Assembly (NCBI GenBank): GCA_028383305.1
Contig: JAOEVD010000017.1
Coordinates: 1 to 49,401, forward strand
DNA length: 49,401 nucleotides
Reading direction: 5' to 3'
DNA from: Candidatus Puniceispirillum sp.
GTDB lineage: Bacteria > Pseudomonadota > Alphaproteobacteria > Puniceispirillales > Puniceispirillaceae
Positions 15,756 to 23,478 of this stretch are shown piece after piece; positions within the stretch are counted from its first letter, which is position 1, and each line of letters starts with the position of its first letter. Below the pieces are notes generated by a model. That model searched no databases, was not told where the DNA came from, and worked only from the letters and a program-made list of their open reading frames with translations. Both the position numbers and the translations under genes were made by a program.

Positions 15756-15770
15756 TTATGAGGAAATGTG

Positions 15771-17366
15771 ATGCGTAGTTTACAACGGCCGGGTCGGTCA
15801 CCAGTTCTAGCCCCAAATGGGATGGCTAGCACGTCTAATCCCTTATCAACTCAGGCTGCGGTCACAGTTCTTCAAAATGGCGGAAATGCAATGGACGCAG
15901 CCATAGCTGCAAGTGCCGTACAAGCGGTTGTCGAGCCAGAATCTACAGGTATTGGTGGTGACTGCTTCTGCCTTTATTCAGAAGCTGGAAGAGACAAGGT
16001 TATTGCCTTGAATGGATCTGGACGTGCGCCGATGAGTTTAACCGCTGATTGGTTGTTGGCACAGGGAATCAAAGAGATTCCTCAACAATCCCCTCATGCA
16101 GTGACAGTGCCAACAGCAATTGATGCTTGGGTACAATTGAACCGCGATTATGGAAAAAAATCGCTTGGCGATCTTCTTCAGCCAGCAATTGGCTATGCCC
16201 GCGACGGATTTCCGATTGGTCAACGAGTTGAAGCAGATTTTGCTGCAAGTCGCGAGCTAATTTTGGGTGATGCTGACTTGAGTGCGTTATACCTTAAAAA
16301 TGGTGAAAATTATAAAATGGGTGATCGGTTTATTAATAAAAACCTCTCCAAAGCATTGGAGGCTGTTGCAAAAAATGGCCGCGCTGGATTTTATGAAGGC
16401 TGGGTAGCAGACGATATTTTAACCAAGCTAAACACACTTGGTGGTTTGCACACACAAGCTGATCTTGACTCGGCATTGGCAAATTATGTTACCCCGATTA
16501 AAACCAACTTCCGTGGTTATGATATTTGGGAATGCCCACCAAATGGGCAAGGCGTCATAGCCTTGATGTTGCTAAACATTATGTCCGGTGTAGATAAGTT
16601 TGGTGATCATCCTATTTCTGTTGAACGTATTCACCATGAGATTGAAGCAGGCCGAATAGCTTATCGTGATCGAAACCTATATTTGTCTGATCCGGAGTTT
16701 TCTGCCATGCCGATTGATGACATGTTAAGTCAGGAGACAGCTGATCTCATCCGCGCTCAAATTAACCCAAATAGGGCACTTGATAAACTTCCTGAAACCA
16801 CACTTCCTAAGCATAAAAGTACAGTTTACATCAGTGTTGTTGATAAAGATCGGAATGCATGTAGTTTTATAAACACTGTGTTTCATAATTTTGGTGCCGG
16901 TATTCTTGCGCCAAAATCAGGTGTCATTTTGCAAAACCGTGGCCAGGGATTTGTAGTTGAGCCAGGTCATCCAAATTGTATTGAACCTGGCAAACGCCCG
17001 CTGCATACGATCATTCCGGGCATGGCCACTAAAGATGGTAAAACCGTAATGCCATTTGGCGTTATGGGCGGTGAATATCAGGCGTTCGGCCATATGCAGT
17101 TTTTGACTCGTCTTTTCGATTATGGGATGGATATTCAAGAGGCGCAGGATATGCCGCGCTTTATGCCGGACCCGTTTAGTGATGTTGTCGAGGTTGAAGA
17201 GCCAATTAGTGATGAAATCTGTGAAGCATTGCGTGCACTTGGGCACAACATTCAGCCAGCTAGCAAGCCTATCGGCGGCTCGCAAGCAATCTTTATTGAT
17301 TGGGATACAGATTTATTAACTGCTGGGTCTGACCCACGCAAAGATGGATGCGCCATTGGCTATTAA
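15771..17366 (+). CDS. ggt: Gamma-glutamyltransferase family hydrolase
   Basis: An N-terminal-nucleophile enzyme that cleaves gamma-glutamyl bonds or transfers the glutamyl group; it would self-cleave into two subunits. The family start MASTSNPLST, the GGNAMDAAIAA segment and GIGGDCFCL are present. The predicted nucleophile is Thr near residue 351 in KSTVYISVVD, aligned with the TTHYSVVD of E. coli. Later segments are EPGKRPLHTIIPGM and GVMGGEYQAFGHMQ. Length is 531. GAGGA six bases before the ATG decides the start over an upstream GTG. No export signal is visible, unlike the periplasmic E. coli enzyme, so a cytoplasmic role on an imported substrate is likely. Confidence 0.92.
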   Translation: MRSLQRPGRSPVLAPNGMASTSNPLSTQAAVTVLQNGGNAMDAAIAASAVQAVVEPESTGIGGDCFCLYSEAGRDKVIALNGSGRAPMSLTADWLLAQGIKEIPQQSPHAVTVPTAIDAWVQLNRDYGKKSLGDLLQPAIGYARDGFPIGQRVEADFAASRELILGDADLSALYLKNGENYKMGDRFINKNLSKALEAVAKNGRAGFYEGWVADDILTKLNTLGGLHTQADLDSALANYVTPIKTNFRGYDIWECPPNGQGVIALMLLNIMSGVDKFGDHPISVERIHHEIEAGRIAYRDRNLYLSDPEFSAMPIDDMLSQETADLIRAQINPNRALDKLPETTLPKHKSTVYISVVDKDRNACSFINTVFHNFGAGILAPKSGVILQNRGQGFVVEPGHPNCIEPGKRPLHTIIPGMATKDGKTVMPFGVMGGEYQAFGHMQFLTRLFDYGMDIQEAQDMPRFMPDPFSDVVEVEEPISDEICEALRALGHNIQPASKPIGGSQAIFIDWDTDLLTAGSDPRKDGCAIGY

Positions 17367-17414: not shown

Positions 17415-18554
17415 CTAATTGGCAGTCTTTTCTATATCGAGAATTATGTGGACATAGTCCATTGCATGACCGATTGGGTTTGCCGCAACCTCGTCACGAT
17501 AGGCCTTATAAAAACGATCAATAATTTGCAGGCTTTCATCGTCACTTCGATCAGAAATTGCTGTTCTGAAAACCGTTTCAGACCAAGATCGCATGGTTGG
17601 AATAAGGCTATCGGCGTATTCAGCGTTTGTCATCGATCCACCAGATCCACCGGCTTTTATGAATGCTGCTTGATAGGGGCATTTTGTGAGTTTGCTGTGA
17701 CAGGATTTTAGCACCAAACCGGCTTTACTGACTGGACTTTGTGGGTCATTGAAGGGCGCACAAAACTCGTTAATATTGCGGTAGTATTGTGCAAATGTTG
17801 CCTTTTCATATTCAACTTTGGTGATAGTGTTGTCCTGATATAGGGCATTCCAATGTTTGTGAAACTGGTCAAACATATGAACCCCGCCAGTATTGCCTAG
17901 ATAGCGCCCCTTTTCGTCTATGCCAAAATTAAGCGCAATAAAACGACCTCCTGGAACCAGCTCAGCAGCGCGGGCAAGCAAAATGTTTTGCCAATCAAGT
18001 GCCGCTTGCTCTGCAAAGGCTGCATTACTCGTATGATCGGCTCTTGCGGCATGCACATGTTTTGGAATTTCCAGCGGTTTGACTGAAACATAATGCATGG
18101 CGGTAGCGCTAAACCCTAAATGCAGGGATTCACTCGCCATTAGTTGTTGGTGAAAACCGGTTCCACACCCATGCACAAAAACATTCTCATGATGCTTTTG
18201 ATAGGCATGGGTTGGGCTGCCTTGCATACCTTGCATCATTCTGAACAGGGTTGAAAAATCATTACTTGCAAGGTCGGTATAGAGTATTTCAATTTGCCGG
18301 TTATCCCCGGACTTGCGGAGCATTTCTATAACCGTACTCCACATTTGTTGGCTAGTACCACCATCAGCGGCGCCAAAATCTGCAAGTCGTAGGCTTTCTG
18401 CATCGGAAAGAGTCTCAAGTGCCGTCAGCACCAGTTCTCTTGCATCATTAATGACATCCCGTGCACCTGCGGTTCGCTCAGAATAATAACCTGCACCTCG
18501 CATGGCCAAAACGGCTTGGGTATTTATACCCCCACTGTCACTTTGGTTTGACAC
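17415..18554 (-). CDS. SABATH-type SAM-dependent carboxyl methyltransferase
   Basis: A 379-residue member of the family best known from plant salicylate, jasmonate and caffeine methyltransferases, which methylate carboxyl groups or ring nitrogens. The N-terminal AMRGAGYYSERT matches the family MxGGxGxxSY start. The SAM-binding DFGAADGGTSQQ is at residues 59-70. YTDLASNDFSTLFRMM (about 92-107) corresponds to the plant NDLPxNDFNxxF element. VPGGRFIALNFGIDEKGR and the mid-protein FSATAMHYVS match the LVPGG and SLHWLS elements. It begins with GTG behind a GGAG, 63 bases after the TRAP permease and in the same direction, with no visible terminator between. It is therefore probably the last gene of the TRAP operon. 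The substrate is unknown; an imported carboxylate is a natural guess. Confidence 0.85.
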   Translation of the reverse strand: MSNQSDSGGINTQAVLAMRGAGYYSERTAGARDVINDARELVLTALETLSDAESLRLADFGAADGGTSQQMWSTVIEMLRKSGDNRQIEILYTDLASNDFSTLFRMMQGMQGSPTHAYQKHHENVFVHGCGTGFHQQLMASESLHLGFSATAMHYVSVKPLEIPKHVHAARADHTSNAAFAEQAALDWQNILLARAAELVPGGRFIALNFGIDEKGRYLGNTGGVHMFDQFHKHWNALYQDNTITKVEYEKATFAQYYRNINEFCAPFNDPQSPVSKAGLVLKSCHSKLTKCPYQAAFIKAGGSGGSMTNAEYADSLIPTMRSWSETVFRTAISDRSDDESLQIIDRFYKAYRDEVAANPIGHAMDYVHIILDIEKTAN

Positions 18555-18617
18555 ACGTTATCTCCACTATTTTATCTTTTTAAGTATAAATTGCTGACGG
18601 GTCTCGCGCGATTTACA

Positions 18618-21269
18618 TTAAAATTGAAGAGCAAGGCTCCTATGTTTTGCTAGGCATGACGTGATTGAGTCAACTTGCTCTTGGTTCAACCTGTCCTGTT
18701 CCCGCAGGCCAAGGTTTGATCTTGCATAAGCTTCAAATGCTGCAAGTTTTTCGTATGGGCTCTGTTTAGCTTTACCACGCCAAGTTAATTCGGCATTAAT
18801 TGAAGCTAATGTTTCATCAACAAACGCAACCGCTTTTGGTAAATTTGGATCTTTCCTATCGATCAAACGGCGCGCATTTGACAATGATTTGGCGGCGTTA
18901 TTGGCCCCAGGGATTCTGGTTAAAACACTATAGGCTGCTTTGAGTTCACTCAGTGCCTCATCAACAGATTGTTGGCCTATCCGGGCTTTGACATTGACTA
19001 TGTCTTGGCGGACCTCATCCAAAATGGAAACAGAGTTGATTGAATACACTATTCCACGGATCTCTGAATAGGCTTGATCTGATTGACGTCGGAATTGCAT
19101 GCGCGCACGATTCAACTTTGTCGTTATGAGTTTAAAATCTTTATTTGTTTTCTGCCAACTGTTTGGAATTAATGCAAGTTTTTCTGTAATGTTTGTCTCA
19201 AGCGTTGAGATTGACTGTTTAATGTCGGTCTTTTTGCTGACATCGTCAGTTCCCCTTAATTCATTTTTTAAAGTTTTGATCTCTTCTTGATTTTGTTTGA
19301 TGGTGCGTTCAAGGCTGCGAACCTCAGTATGAATTGGCGCATAAGCAACTGATGCACGTGCCATTTCAGCTTGAGCTTCCTTGATTTCGTCTATCAAAAC
19401 GAAAATATCACCAGCAGATTTTAAACTACGCTGAAGCCCTGCCATCGTTGTTTTTGGAAGTGAGGAATAATCAAGATTATTTAGCAAACTAACTTGCGAT
19501 AAATATTCGCTCTTATTGGCATCATAAAAACTAAATAGGTGGCTTTCTAAGCACAACTGTAGGCGTGGGTTTTTTGGTGGCGGCGCAGTCTCACTTGATA
19601 AAAATGTTTTGGTTGGCAGGTAGTTCACCAAACTTGGATTAAAACCTACGATTGCGAGTCCTAGTAATTGTAGGCCAATAAACGGAACGACGCCTTTATA
19701 CATGTCTATGGTTTTGACTGCTTTGGATGCCACTCCCCGTAGATAAAATAATGCAAAACCAAATGGTGGCGTGAGGAATGAGGTTTGGATGTTGAGGCCA
19801 ATCATAACGCCAAGCCAAACAGCTGTTATATTGGCAGATGGATCAGCAAGCAAAATTGGCGCAACGATTGGTACCACGACCACTGCAATCTCAATAAAGT
19901 CGAGAAAGAAACCAAGCAGGAATATTACCAGCATGACTACCATGAATTGTGCCCAAAACCCTCCGGGCAAACCCGACAGGAAATGCTTTACAACTTCTTC
20001 GCCGCCAAATCCTCGGAAAGCAGCCGTCAGCATTGCGGCGCCGAGCAAAATAATAAAGACAAGGGAGGTTGTCTTTGCTGTTTCAGACATAACTTCACGA
20101 AGCGTGTCTTCAATCTTAAACGCGCGCCATCCACTCCATGCGATACCAGCACAAAGGCCAATAACAGCTAACGTGACAAAAAACACCCCAAACCAGTCAG
20201 AGGGATCCGTAACGGTCTTGATGCTAAGATTAAAGTTAGTTTTAATAAGCCAAATTAATAAAAGCGAAACGATGGTTAAGATCGATGGGTAAAAAGCAGA
20301 TTTTGACCCCTCATGGAGTTTGTAGCCTGCCATAATCAGAGCTCCCACTGCGCCGATTGCTCCAGCTTGGTTTACTGTAGCAATACCTGCAATGATCGAA
20401 CCGAGGACTAGAAAAATTAGTAGTAGGGGCGGCACCAACGCTAGAGCCACTTTTAACAGAAAGCTTCTTTCTAATAATTTACCATCATATTTTACAGCGG
20501 GTGCTAAAGAAGGGCGAATTAACGCAGCAATCAAGATGTAGGCCATGTAGATACCGACAAGCAGAATTCCAGGCAAAAAAGCGCCAAGGAACATATCTCC
20601 AGCACTAGTTGAAATGATATTAAATTCAGACGGCATGCTGAACTGACCGGTTGCTTGCTTGTATAATGCTTTACGCGCCGTTGCCGCTTGATCGGCAGCG
20701 CTTGCCAGCTGATCGGCTAAAATTATTAGAACAATTGAGGGTGGAATAATTTGTCCTAAAGTGCCTGATGCGCATATCGCGCCTGTTGCAAGGGGTTTTG
20801 AATAGTTGTTGCGCAACATAGCTGGCAACGAAATCAGGCCCATTGCAACAACCGTCGCGCCCACAATACCTGTGGTCGCAGCTAAAAGCCCCCCTACAAA
20901 TACCACTGAAATGCCGAGCCCGCCGGGAACAGCTCCGAATAATTGTGCCATAGTGACAAGAAGATCTTCAGCAATCTTTGATCGCTGGAGCATGATGCCC
21001 ATAAATATGAATAATGGGATCGCTATGAGGGTGTCCCGTTCCACCTCCCAATAAATTCCCCGAAAGTTTGTAACACCTGCCGTTAGCCATTCAATAGGCC
21101 CATCCTGAATAAAATAAGCACCGCTATCACCTTCAAAAAGTGTTCCAGTTAGGCCGGCAAGAGTGATTGTAACGATGGCAGCACCTGGCAATGCAAATGC
21201 AACGGGATAGCCAGAACCAAGGGCATACATCATCAACAAAAATAGGATTGCTAGGAATAAAAGTTCCAT
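18618..21269 (-). CDS. dctM: TRAP transporter large permease (DctM) with long C-terminal extension
   Basis: The membrane channel subunit of a sodium-driven TRAP uptake system. Residues 1 to about 560 are the DctM domain with more than a dozen hydrophobic segments. Family landmarks include IPLFIFMGIML, GGLLAATTGIVGATVVAMG, GTLGQIIPPSIVLII and FLDFIEIAVVVVPI. From about residue 565 the protein continues for some 310 hydrophilic, charged residues with several likely coiled-coil stretches (for example EVRSLERTIKQNQEEIKTLK). At 883 residues it is about twice the usual DctM length. The start codon overlaps the dctQ stop in TAATG, so the two are translationally coupled. I see no named domain in the tail. 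Confidence 0.92.
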   Translation of the reverse strand: MELLFLAILFLLMMYALGSGYPVAFALPGAAIVTITLAGLTGTLFEGDSGAYFIQDGPIEWLTAGVTNFRGIYWEVERDTLIAIPLFIFMGIMLQRSKIAEDLLVTMAQLFGAVPGGLGISVVFVGGLLAATTGIVGATVVAMGLISLPAMLRNNYSKPLATGAICASGTLGQIIPPSIVLIILADQLASAADQAATARKALYKQATGQFSMPSEFNIISTSAGDMFLGAFLPGILLVGIYMAYILIAALIRPSLAPAVKYDGKLLERSFLLKVALALVPPLLLIFLVLGSIIAGIATVNQAGAIGAVGALIMAGYKLHEGSKSAFYPSILTIVSLLLIWLIKTNFNLSIKTVTDPSDWFGVFFVTLAVIGLCAGIAWSGWRAFKIEDTLREVMSETAKTTSLVFIILLGAAMLTAAFRGFGGEEVVKHFLSGLPGGFWAQFMVVMLVIFLLGFFLDFIEIAVVVVPIVAPILLADPSANITAVWLGVMIGLNIQTSFLTPPFGFALFYLRGVASKAVKTIDMYKGVVPFIGLQLLGLAIVGFNPSLVNYLPTKTFLSSETAPPPKNPRLQLCLESHLFSFYDANKSEYLSQVSLLNNLDYSSLPKTTMAGLQRSLKSAGDIFVLIDEIKEAQAEMARASVAYAPIHTEVRSLERTIKQNQEEIKTLKNELRGTDDVSKKTDIKQSISTLETNITEKLALIPNSWQKTNKDFKLITTKLNRARMQFRRQSDQAYSEIRGIVYSINSVSILDEVRQDIVNVKARIGQQSVDEALSELKAAYSVLTRIPGANNAAKSLSNARRLIDRKDPNLPKAVAFVDETLASINAELTWRGKAKQSPYEKLAAFEAYARSNLGLREQDRLNQEQVDSITSCLAKHRSLALQF

Positions 21270-22285
21270 TATTCAGTAGCCCCTTCCGCACCCAAATCAT
21301 CAGTAATATTTTCCTGAATGTCTGCCATTGACTGAAATAGGTAGGCGGTAAACTGCAAAATCATACTTAGAGCAAAAACCATAAGGAAAGCTGCCATCAA
21401 ATATTTCACATACATTCCAAAGCCGCTCATTGACGTTTCAAAATTCATCATTGGGCTATTAATTAGACTGGATTTTCCCCACATGCCACGTATCAGGATG
21501 AGCCAGCAAAGTGGAATCCCAAAAAACAATGTCCCAATCGTATTAAGTATTGATTTGGTGCGCCTTTCCAAGCCTGCATAAAACACATCAACTCGGACAT
21601 GGCCATCCTCTTTTAATGTGTAGGCAGATGCAAAAAGGAACAGAGCCGCATACCAGAAGCGCACAAGGTCTCCCATAAAGGTTTGTTCATAACCGTAAAT
21701 GAAACGGCCAACCACAATAAGGAACTCAGCAATCACAACCAACAGGGTCAACCAAACCAAAGAAACTGATTTATCACGTAAAGCAATCAGAGCTGCAACA
21801 ATCATCAAAGGAACATGGATGTATATTCCGCGAGAGCTTGGTAAAGCAATTATAGCCCCCCCTAAATCACCAAAAACTGTTTTATGAAAATCTTCAACGC
21901 GCATGAAAGACATTATAGCGTCGGCAATTCCAACAATTAGCACTGCCCAAAAGGCAGCACGAATAACATATGCGGAAAGCCAGTCAAGGCGCTCGGCATC
22001 TAAACGAAGCTGGCCTTTTTTTATGGTATGGAAACAAGCCCAAAAGATCACTCCAAAAACAGATGCAGTTTGCACCAACCCAACAATATATAATCCACTG
22101 CTGTACCCACCCTTTAGGCTCTCAACACCAAAAATTTTGTTTAGGCCAAGCACATTGATCACACCTGGAGCATTAAATCCAAAAATTAGAAAATTATTTA
22201 CCACAAAAAGAACTGATAAAAATGCGCTGCAAAGCCCTACTAAATGCAGCATGGAAGACAAATTACTTTTTCGTTCTGACAGCAT
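21269..22285 (-). CDS. dctQ: TRAP transporter small permease (DctQ), enlarged
   Basis: The small membrane subunit that pairs with DctM. At 338 residues it is about twice the usual 160-200. I count about eight hydrophobic segments. The C-terminal half (from about residue 185) is the classic four-helix DctQ domain with RFWYAALFLFASAYTLKEDGHVRVDV. The N-terminal half supplies about four extra helices. A TTG three codons upstream also opens the frame; ATG is preferred although neither has a strong ribosome binding site. It follows dctP after a stable hairpin and overlaps dctM by one base. Confidence 0.88.
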   Translation of the reverse strand: MLSERKSNLSSMLHLVGLCSAFLSVLFVVNNFLIFGFNAPGVINVLGLNKIFGVESLKGGYSSGLYIVGLVQTASVFGVIFWACFHTIKKGQLRLDAERLDWLSAYVIRAAFWAVLIVGIADAIMSFMRVEDFHKTVFGDLGGAIIALPSSRGIYIHVPLMIVAALIALRDKSVSLVWLTLLVVIAEFLIVVGRFIYGYEQTFMGDLVRFWYAALFLFASAYTLKEDGHVRVDVFYAGLERRTKSILNTIGTLFFGIPLCWLILIRGMWGKSSLINSPMMNFETSMSGFGMYVKYLMAAFLMVFALSMILQFTAYLFQSMADIQENITDDLGAEGATE

Positions 22286-22326
22286 TATGATCAACTTAAA
22301 TATGATTAACCAAATAATTAAAACAT

Positions 22327-22358
22327 TGAGATCCGCTATTTACAGATAGCGGATCTCA
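22327..22358 (-). promoter_or_regulatory. Intercistronic hairpin between dctP and dctQ
   Basis: A perfect 13-bp inverted repeat (TGAGATCCGCTAT/ATAGCGGATCTCA) encloses a 6-base loop between the dctP stop and the dctQ start. On the transcribed strand it is followed only by a weak T-rich stretch (ATGTTTTAATTATTT). It may be a partial terminator or 3' stabiliser that keeps binding-protein mRNA in excess over the permease mRNA. Confidence 0.65.
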
Positions 22359-22371
22359 GTTGATTTTTTAT

Positions 22372-22409
22372 CCCAGAGCAGCGCTACGCTCCCAGAGCAG
22401 CGTTACGCT
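22372..22409. repeat. 19-bp tandem duplication over the dctP stop codon
   Basis: Two adjacent 19-base copies (CCCAGAGCAGCGCTACGCT and the same with one C-to-T difference) span the 3' end of dctP. The second copy supplies the present TAG stop. Removing one copy would end the protein one residue earlier at a TAA, so the duplication is nearly neutral for the protein. Confidence 0.8.
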
Positions 22410-23478
22410 TATTTGTGTACGCAACGTCATTTAACTGGACGTAATCACCAACTATTTTTCTAGCATTTACCATAGATTCGTGGATCTTTTTTGCCAGCGC
22501 TGAATGAGTTTGGACTTCCTCATATACCTCGTCTGAGCCACGTTTGAAGGCAGCGTATACGTCATCATTGAATTCTTTAACGACAACACCTTGATCATTC
22601 ACCAAACGCTCAAGTGCGGCACCATTTTTGGCATTGTACTCAGCCATGAAATCATTATCTCCACCGGCTGCAACTGCTTGGATAAGCGCTTTATCAGATG
22701 CACTCATACCGCTCCAGAATGATGCGTTAAATCCAACATGCAGCTGTGAAGCTGGCTCATGCATGCCTGGATAGTAATAGTATTTTGCAGCCTCATAAAA
22801 CTTCATCGCTTCGTCGTTCCATGGGCCAACCCATTCTGTTGCGTCAATTGCACCAGAGACAAGGTTTTCATAGATTTGGCCACCTGGAAGTGAAACTGGA
22901 GACGCACCAAGCTTGGCCATAACATCTCCACCAAGGCCAGGGATACGCATTTTTAGTCCTTTTAAATCATCTCCAGAGTTGATTTCTTTGTTGAACCAAC
23001 CGCCCCACTGAACTCCAGTGTTGCCCATTGGCACACATTTTAAACCAAATTCACCAGCTAATTCATCGTGAAGCTCTTGGCCACCCATCCAGCGAAGCCA
23101 AGCCTTCATTTCTGGGTAAGTAAGGCCAAATGGAACGGCTGTAAAATAGGCCCATCCAGGATGCTTTCCTTTCCAATAATAATCTGCTGCATGATAGGCT
23201 TGTGCATTACCTGAGGCTACCTCGTCAAAGGAATCAAACGCGCCCACACGCTCACCGGCAGCATAGTAGGTGACTTGAATGCGACCATCAGTTACGTCTG
23301 AAAGCTTCTGCGCAAAGCGCTGAGCACCAGTGCCAAGGCCAGGAAAATCTCTTGGCCAAGTTGATACCATTGCAATTTCGATTCGGTCTTGAGCAATAGC
23401 TGGCGCAGCAAGCGTAGACGCAGCAACTGTGCCTGCTCCGACCAAACCCGCTTTAGTAATAAAATCTCTACGTTTCAT
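22384..23478 (-). CDS. dctP: TRAP substrate-binding protein, TakP-like
   Basis: The periplasmic solute receptor of the TRAP system, 364 residues. It begins with a twin-arginine-like signal (MKRRDFITKAGLVGAG ... APAIAQ). The mature protein shows DctP-family segments YYWKGKHPGWAYFTAVPFG, NTGVQWGGWFNKEI, LKGLKMRIPGLGG and GAIDATEWVGPWND, then KYYYYPGMHEP. These closely follow the 2-oxoacid-binding protein TakP of Rhodobacter (GNTGVQ-GGWF-KEIN, DATEWVGP, YYYYPG), so a 2-oxoacid or similar small carboxylate is the likely ligand; lactate- and mannitol-type relatives share much of this. It is the first gene of the leftward dctP-dctQ-dctM-methyltransferase operon. Confidence 0.93.
   Translation of the reverse strand: MKRRDFITKAGLVGAGTVAASTLAAPAIAQDRIEIAMVSTWPRDFPGLGTGAQRFAQKLSDVTDGRIQVTYYAAGERVGAFDSFDEVASGNAQAYHAADYYWKGKHPGWAYFTAVPFGLTYPEMKAWLRWMGGQELHDELAGEFGLKCVPMGNTGVQWGGWFNKEINSGDDLKGLKMRIPGLGGDVMAKLGASPVSLPGGQIYENLVSGAIDATEWVGPWNDEAMKFYEAAKYYYYPGMHEPASQLHVGFNASFWSGMSASDKALIQAVAAGGDNDFMAEYNAKNGAALERLVNDQGVVVKEFNDDVYAAFKRGSDEVYEEVQTHSALAKKIHESMVNARKIVGDYVQLNDVAYTNKRNAALGA

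Follow-up and report, generated by a model that had tools for sequence, protein, structure and literature searches.

The window analysed here, a stretch of 49,401 nucleotides from Candidatus Puniceispirillum sp. (assembly GCA_028383305.1, contig JAOEVD010000017.1; contig C9 of a 2.41 Mb genome that is 84% complete), carries a run of four genes in which dctP, dctQ and dctM, encoding a tripartite ATP-independent periplasmic (TRAP) transporter, are followed by the gene of a SABATH-family methyltransferase dependent on S-adenosylmethionine (SAM). It is tentatively proposed that this enzyme methylates an imported 2-oxo acid or its product, probably on the carboxyl group. The observed basis of the proposal comprises the gene order, the family membership of the products, the retention of TakP ligand residues and of SAM-binding residues, purifying selection, and the repeated pairing of enzyme and transporter across genomes. 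According to this reading, dctPQM would import a short 2-oxo (or 2-hydroxy) carboxylate, with DctP holding the acid by way of a cation, in the manner of TakP, and DctQM carrying it inward. A co-transcribed SABATH enzyme would then move the methyl group of SAM to the imported acid or an intracellular product, most likely at the carboxyl, and the purpose might be to detoxify a reactive keto acid or to form a diffusible ester.

The dctPQM-SABATH locus and its products

All four reading frames are intact and full-length and run in one direction on the minus strand, from 23478 to 17415, as an earlier note on this DNA had described. Their products pass the Pfam cut-offs for DctP (PF03480, 1.2e-50), DctQ (PF04290, 1.4e-11), DctM (PF06808, 6.9e-63) and the SABATH family (PF03492, 6.9e-32), with the three components of a TRAP transporter thus encoded together. 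The finer junctions given in that note were likewise recovered: dctQ and dctM overlap by one base, at 21269; the SABATH gene starts 63 bases past dctM, which ends at 18618, with a GTG at 18554; its own GGAG lies at 18562-18565, 7 bases ahead of the start; and the gap, in which the note saw no terminator, is structurally unremarkable (z = 0.27). A weak 6-pair terminator-like site (18641-18627) occupies the extreme end of dctM, where the surrounding region holds 7 such sites against 7.2 expected by chance. The features of the locus are as follows.

22384..23478, minus strand: dctP, TakP-like TRAP solute-binding protein (PF03480)
22327..22358, no strand assigned: strong stem-loop separating dctP from dctQ, resembling a terminator on either strand (z -4.2)
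21269..22285, minus strand: dctQ, TRAP small permease, 338 residues (PF04290 over residues 188-317)
18618..21269, minus strand: dctM, TRAP large permease, 883 residues (PF06808)
18621..19559, minus strand: C-terminal tail of DctM, 313 residues, predicted all helical (AlphaFold predicted local distance difference test, pLDDT, 88.5)
18555..18617, minus strand: junction between dctM and the SABATH gene, 63 bases
17415..18554, minus strand: SABATH-family (PF03492) SAM-dependent methyltransferase, 379 residues, GTG start (profile, AlphaFold model and fold match)
15768..17366, plus strand: gamma-glutamyltransferase (GGT)-family gene, convergent neighbour ending 48 bases from the SABATH stop and not claimed as part of the system (PF01019, 4.8e-143)

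Short same-strand gaps between dctM and the SABATH gene across genus g1 support a putative single dctPQM-SABATH transcript, within which the stem-loop after dctP may lower the expression of the downstream genes and may control how much binding protein is made relative to permease.

The best solved relative of the window's DctP is 2hzk (TakP, formerly SmoM; 3.3e-74), and 7ug8, a structure whose chain is named a ketoacid-binding protein, is also among its structure matches. An excerpt of the TakP account gives Tyr100, Gln156, Arg177, Glu214, Trp215 (main chain) and Glu240 as the ligands of pyruvate and sodium (PMC1839085), and all six positions are kept in the window (Y101, Q157, R178, E215, W216 and E241). 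DctP, whose N-terminus resembles a twin-arginine translocation signal by eye, is predicted to be a TakP-type 2-oxo-acid binding protein. Both permease subunits are extended, DctQ by approximately 187 residues preceding its domain and DctM, after 570 permease residues, by the 313-residue tail, in which two cysteines are invariant across 9 aligned sequences and perhaps form a periplasmic disulfide. A PDB search with the tail returned no match with E <= 0.001. DctM proteins of this tail type are present in 31 of 385 genomes sampled from the class, often by parC.

The methyltransferase scores 111.4 bits against PF03492 (cut-off 29.8) and is the single match to this family in its genome; none was found in 14 control genomes. 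Its AlphaFold model has a pLDDT of 85.0 and a predicted template-modelling score of 0.84, and a PDB search places SABATH structures throughout ranks 1-29, the closest by both sequence and predicted fold being the mycobacterial fatty-acid methyltransferase (FAMT), with plant SABATH enzymes next. With residue roles taken from an excerpt of PMC13376665 and the alignment read by eye, the SAM-binding residues S33, D68, D108, L109 and F140 of IAMT correspond to T28, D59, D94, L95 and F134, the sole change being Ser to Thr. Comparison with the locus L002 gives proportions of nonsynonymous and synonymous differences of 0.006 (pn) and 0.076 (ps), which indicates that the gene is under purifying selection. 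The carboxylate clamp is altered. K10, Q25 and W151 of SAMT are carboxylate ligands conserved in the family, according to the same excerpt (PMC13376665), and in a profile alignment read by eye they correspond to R19, A31 and Y155 of the window's enzyme, the position of R19 being Lys in most relatives. Judged from these alignments, the enzyme belongs to a bacterial branch nearest mycobacterial FAMT, with a changed clamp; of the description "plant-style" in the earlier note, the PF03492 family and the SABATH fold stand, while the nearest relative is mycobacterial and two of the three clamp residues are replaced.

Recurrence of the pairing across genomes

A pattern-based scan covering 84,980 species genomes yielded 77 loci, and a family search of 61 relatives yielded 21 places. 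The counting set consisted of 103 loci whose SABATH match spans 850 bases or more, without the repeats L001, L099-L128 and L149-L187, and was thinned to 60 at 95% identity. Among these 60 non-redundant relatives of the enzyme gene, 22 have TRAP genes no more than 1.5 kb away (20 of the tail type, 2 of other types), and 7 are too close to a contig end for a call; the absence of a conserved neighbourhood, which the earlier note had named as fatal to the pairing, is thus not what was found. The queries for TRAP genes were TakP-like and could have overlooked other kinds; when 62 loci were searched again with 29 diverse DctP and 20 DctM-like proteins, no additional TRAP-adjacent SABATH gene came up, and in three loci TRAP genes lay at a distance of 5-8 kb. 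Two genomes drawn later showed no TRAP genes beside the enzyme. Within genus g1 (16 genomes, window included), 11 genomes give a strong SABATH hit and each of them has the dctM-SABATH junction; a twelfth, weaker hit in G011 (8.3e-4), with six internal stops, was dropped.

On the enzyme tree, the adjacency requires five changes, gains or losses, and across its lineages the genes come in four arrangements, with DctM of two kinds. The enzyme gene follows dctPQM in Puniceispirillum, faces dctM in the low-GC AG- genomes (SABATH> <dctMQP), precedes dctPQM in the Hyphomicrobiales metagenome-assembled genomes (MAGs) L063 and L064, follows dctQMP in Acuticoccus mangrovi (L044), and precedes a dctPQM set with a tail-less DctM in G088. 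TRAP-adjacent positions make up 1.3-4.4% of seven larger genomes, a somewhat high estimate with split DctM pieces counted apart. At a share of 2-4.4%, the chance of finding 5 of about 24 contexts TRAP-adjacent is 1e-4 to 3e-3, and that of 4 of 23, with the window's lineage left out, is 1e-3 to 0.017; these figures are rough since the number of contexts is our own reading of gene maps. Three further SABATH loci, 98%, 57% and 45% identical to that of the window, carry the labels Porticoccaceae (L003), Euryarchaeota (L039) and Acidimicrobiaceae (L049); at least the first two labels are probably binning errors, because the alphaproteobacterial gene order is kept.

The pairing extends to co-occurrence. 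In the 385 class genomes (window included), 13 encode a SABATH enzyme (one of them, G359, by a weak match of 1.1e-31), 31 a tail-type TRAP transporter and 9 both (Fisher 2.5e-8), four of the nine belonging to the window's family. The association holds by genus, with tail-type TRAP in 4 of 7 SABATH genera (p = 0.001), and also without five listed genomes of the window's family, where 5 of 9 SABATH genomes carry it (p about 1e-4). Among the 61 relatives, tail-type TRAP occurs in 20/20 genomes with a strong SABATH hit versus 16/41 others (p = 1.2e-6); 11 of those 20 represent one genus, and counting by genus gives 6/6 versus 5/11 (p = 0.04).

The partner binding proteins are also of one kind. In all five lineages, the binding protein has the Gln, Arg, Glu/Asp and Glu of the TakP cation site, and the pyruvate and sodium ligand set is complete in four, Acuticoccus showing Glu-to-Asp and Trp-to-Phe changes. 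Few such binding proteins were found in two of the genomes concerned: three in G088 (6 of 16 DctP matches checked) against 27 DctM matches, and two in Acuticoccus (7 of 41 checked) against 59, where the unchecked DctP matches score lower and split DctM pieces were counted apart. The ranks of the Acuticoccus and OFTM binding proteins are not independent, because both proteins are inside profile A3; the partner in G088, absent from that profile, ranks first of 16. Taken together, SABATH enzymes and TRAP transporters have been re-paired in several alphaproteobacterial lineages in different orders, suggesting that they work jointly on an acid.

Several observations weigh against the proposal that the enzyme methylates what this importer brings in. 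Carboxyl methylation is not assured, because Q25 and W151 of the clamp are replaced by A31 and Y155, which all 15 aligned bacterial sequences share. The stem-loop separates dctP from dctQ. More than half of the SABATH genes in the counting set (31/60) have no TRAP genes beside them, and their contexts vary widely. Conversely, tail-type TRAP transporters occur without the enzyme in 22 of the 31 carrier genomes of the class sample and without a strong SABATH hit in 16 of the 61 relatives; 8 of 11 mapped class loci of this type (L197-L207) lie within ~2 kb of parC with a SABATH gene between in none, and three order-level relatives (L138-L140) likewise have a parC-adjoining tail-type TRAP with no SABATH gene between. 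Because the enzyme is missing from these carriers and from the parC-adjoining loci, the tail-type TRAP has a function of its own without it, and the transporter is not dedicated to an enzyme that the majority of its sampled carriers do without. The arrangement in the AG- genomes could represent an insertion at the place between parC and TRAP.

Alternative explanations and other candidate partners

A second recurrent neighbour of the enzyme gene is a module comprising an aldehyde dehydrogenase, an M19 dipeptidase, a protein of ~570 residues without a Pfam family (c35), DUF3726 and often Ldh_2. It supports an alternative in which the methyltransferase is part of this catabolic module (with a 2,5-dioxovalerate-type aldehyde dehydrogenase) and acts on one of its intermediates and not on the imported acid, perhaps handling hydroxyproline-like or five-carbon 2-oxo or imino acids, with the TRAP transporter as one feeder; this is considered unlikely, though it merits serious attention. 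The c35 gene lies within 2 kb of the SABATH gene in four separate contexts with different gene orders, namely family f2 (L130 and its relatives L012 and L013), Acuticoccus (L044), Rhodospirillaceae (L047, L050, L053 and L056) and G491 (L248), for which a gene occurring a single time in each genome would have a chance of about 1e-7 to 1e-8, c35 having been chosen after the maps were seen. Acuticoccus carries TRAP, SABATH and module in a single run; the module follows the tail-type TRAP on the same contig in G046 and, in G037, lies between TRAP and SABATH genes that are ~14 kb apart, starting ~6 kb from the former. The window's genome also encodes c35, M19 and DUF3726 together with a 2,5-dioxovalerate-dehydrogenase-like gene on contig C34 (L208, 6147-11017). 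However, the enzyme adjoins TRAP and not the module in Puniceispirillum, the AG clade and the OFTM genomes. Because c35 is near-universal among the relatives (51 of 61, mostly one match), its presence was rejected as evidence and only its adjacency used, and the module dehydrogenases fall short of the NCBIfam equivalog cut-offs. Excerpted text on HypR hydroxyproline regulons names hypS (malate-dehydrogenase-like) and HypH (PMC5343134); the hydroxyproline link, mostly from recall, is a lead and not a result. The module context in itself suggests a role for the enzyme in metabolizing a short acid of the 2-oxo or imino type, in agreement with a TakP-type importer.

It is also doubtful, at a comparable level, that transporter and enzyme function independently, with the enzyme methylating an internal acid, for instance a fatty acid as FAMT does, and with the abundance of TRAP loci and insertions between parC and TRAP accounting for the adjacency. 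FAMT is the nearest structure in both sequence and fold, seven genomes of 2.4 Mb or more hold 11-59 DctM matches each (split pieces counted apart), and the AG-clade enzyme gene sits between parC and a TRAP set of a type found by parC elsewhere without the enzyme. Yet Q154 and W155 of FAMT are H154 and Y155 in the window's enzyme, the partners are TakP-like in all five lineages despite the scarcity of such proteins in G088 and Acuticoccus, and tail-type TRAP and the enzyme co-occur even when they are not adjacent. Transfer of the methyl group to N, S or enol O of the imported compound instead of its carboxylate, which the Ala and Tyr in the clamp and the existence of SABATH N-methyltransferases of the caffeine type (PMC9822479, in excerpt) would favour, is very improbable; against it, the clamp Lys (Arg in the window) is retained in most relatives.

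Other candidate partners and substrates were considered, and nicotinate was rejected. In L013, the gene directly before the SABATH gene passes the nicotinamidase cut-off (212 versus 174 bits), and relatives 72-79% identical occupy the same position in L012 and L130; nicotinate cannot explain the window, because no nicotinamidase-like gene was matched in G000, G004, the AG genome G444 or the OFTM genome G443. Nicotinamidase-like and ferredoxin-reductase-like genes adjoin the tail-type TRAP in L141 and L148 (genus g15, with no SABATH match), and L141 has two dctP-like genes in tandem. Relatives of the GGT-family gene adjoin the SABATH gene in genus g1 and are differently arranged in genus g10; as a partner this gene is a lead only, since it also occurs without SABATH (G020) and G000 and G004 have several matches to its family. 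In G004, the SABATH-adjacent copy is 78% identical to the window's GGT, and a second relative far from that locus (C1, 1447967-1449562) is 84% identical. In five loci of the SAR116 order (L145, L146, L014, L030 and L046), the SABATH gene comes last in a series with alpha/beta hydrolase, GGT, DUF1330, nitronate-monooxygenase-like, AMP-binding and RraA-like genes. The contexts on the deeper branch of SABATH genes are mutually discordant, comprising TGT with histone-deacetylase-like genes, a thiamine pyrophosphate enzyme, a corrinoid methyltransferase set, and a sigma factor with a ChrR-like cupin. In L057 (7265-9770), genes for a homocysteine S-methyltransferase, a corrinoid-binding protein and DUF1638 lie directly upstream of SABATH, and the same three have relatives in another Rhodobacteraceae MAG (L067), which makes one more context of methyl transfer.

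Relation to known systems and implications

SABATH enzymes have been studied mostly in plants, where they produce hormone esters and scents. The plant enzymes SAMT (1m6e), IAMT (3b5i) and LAMT (6c8r) share PF03492 and the fold with the window's enzyme (template-modelling (TM) scores 0.67-0.73), as well as the SAM residues except the Ser-to-Thr change, whereas the clamp differs. Mycobacterial FAMT (5f2k, 5f2n and 5f2o) is closer, with TM scores of 0.80-0.81, 25-26% identity over the full length and a sequence E-value of 7.4e-25, and differs at the Q154-W155 pair; we know of no TRAP partner for it. In Escherichia coli, the TRAP transporter YiaMNO is in one operon with YiaK, an Ldh_2 enzyme acting on the imported 2-oxo acid, an arrangement that likewise joins a TRAP importer to an enzyme for its cargo, with a reductase in place of a methyltransferase. 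To our knowledge, no methyltransferase accompanies TakP. The TakPQM system of Rhodobacter sphaeroides (2hzk/2hzl) matches the window in its binding protein and all its pyruvate and sodium ligands (PMC1839085, in excerpt), and differs from it by lacking the DctM tail and the DctQ extension; the same excerpt mentions no methyltransferase. Both a bacterial SABATH enzyme (FAMT) and a TRAP system encoded together with an enzyme (YiaMNO-YiaK) are thus already known, and their combination would be the new element. In the open-licence literature, no paper was found treating both SABATH and a TRAP transporter, on DUF3726, or joining alpha-keto acid, TRAP transporter, methyltransferase and marine, and among the papers listed none dealt with an alphaproteobacterial SABATH enzyme; excerpts of PMC11449224 and PMC7762392 hold nothing on bacterial SABATH genes.

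In its broadest form, the reading would describe a recurrent import-and-methylate system that turns 2-oxo acids from seawater into methylated, diffusible products, a non-plant SABATH active site having been wired to TakP-type importers several times, including in SAR116, for a chemistry not described for bacteria; this broad form is speculative and rather unlikely. If the bacterial SABATH branch is coupled to keto-acid uptake in bacteria of the surface ocean, that branch would gain a first testable substrate class, one of the many TRAP systems lacking assigned substrates would gain a function, and TRAP import would be tied to methylated and possibly volatile marine compounds.

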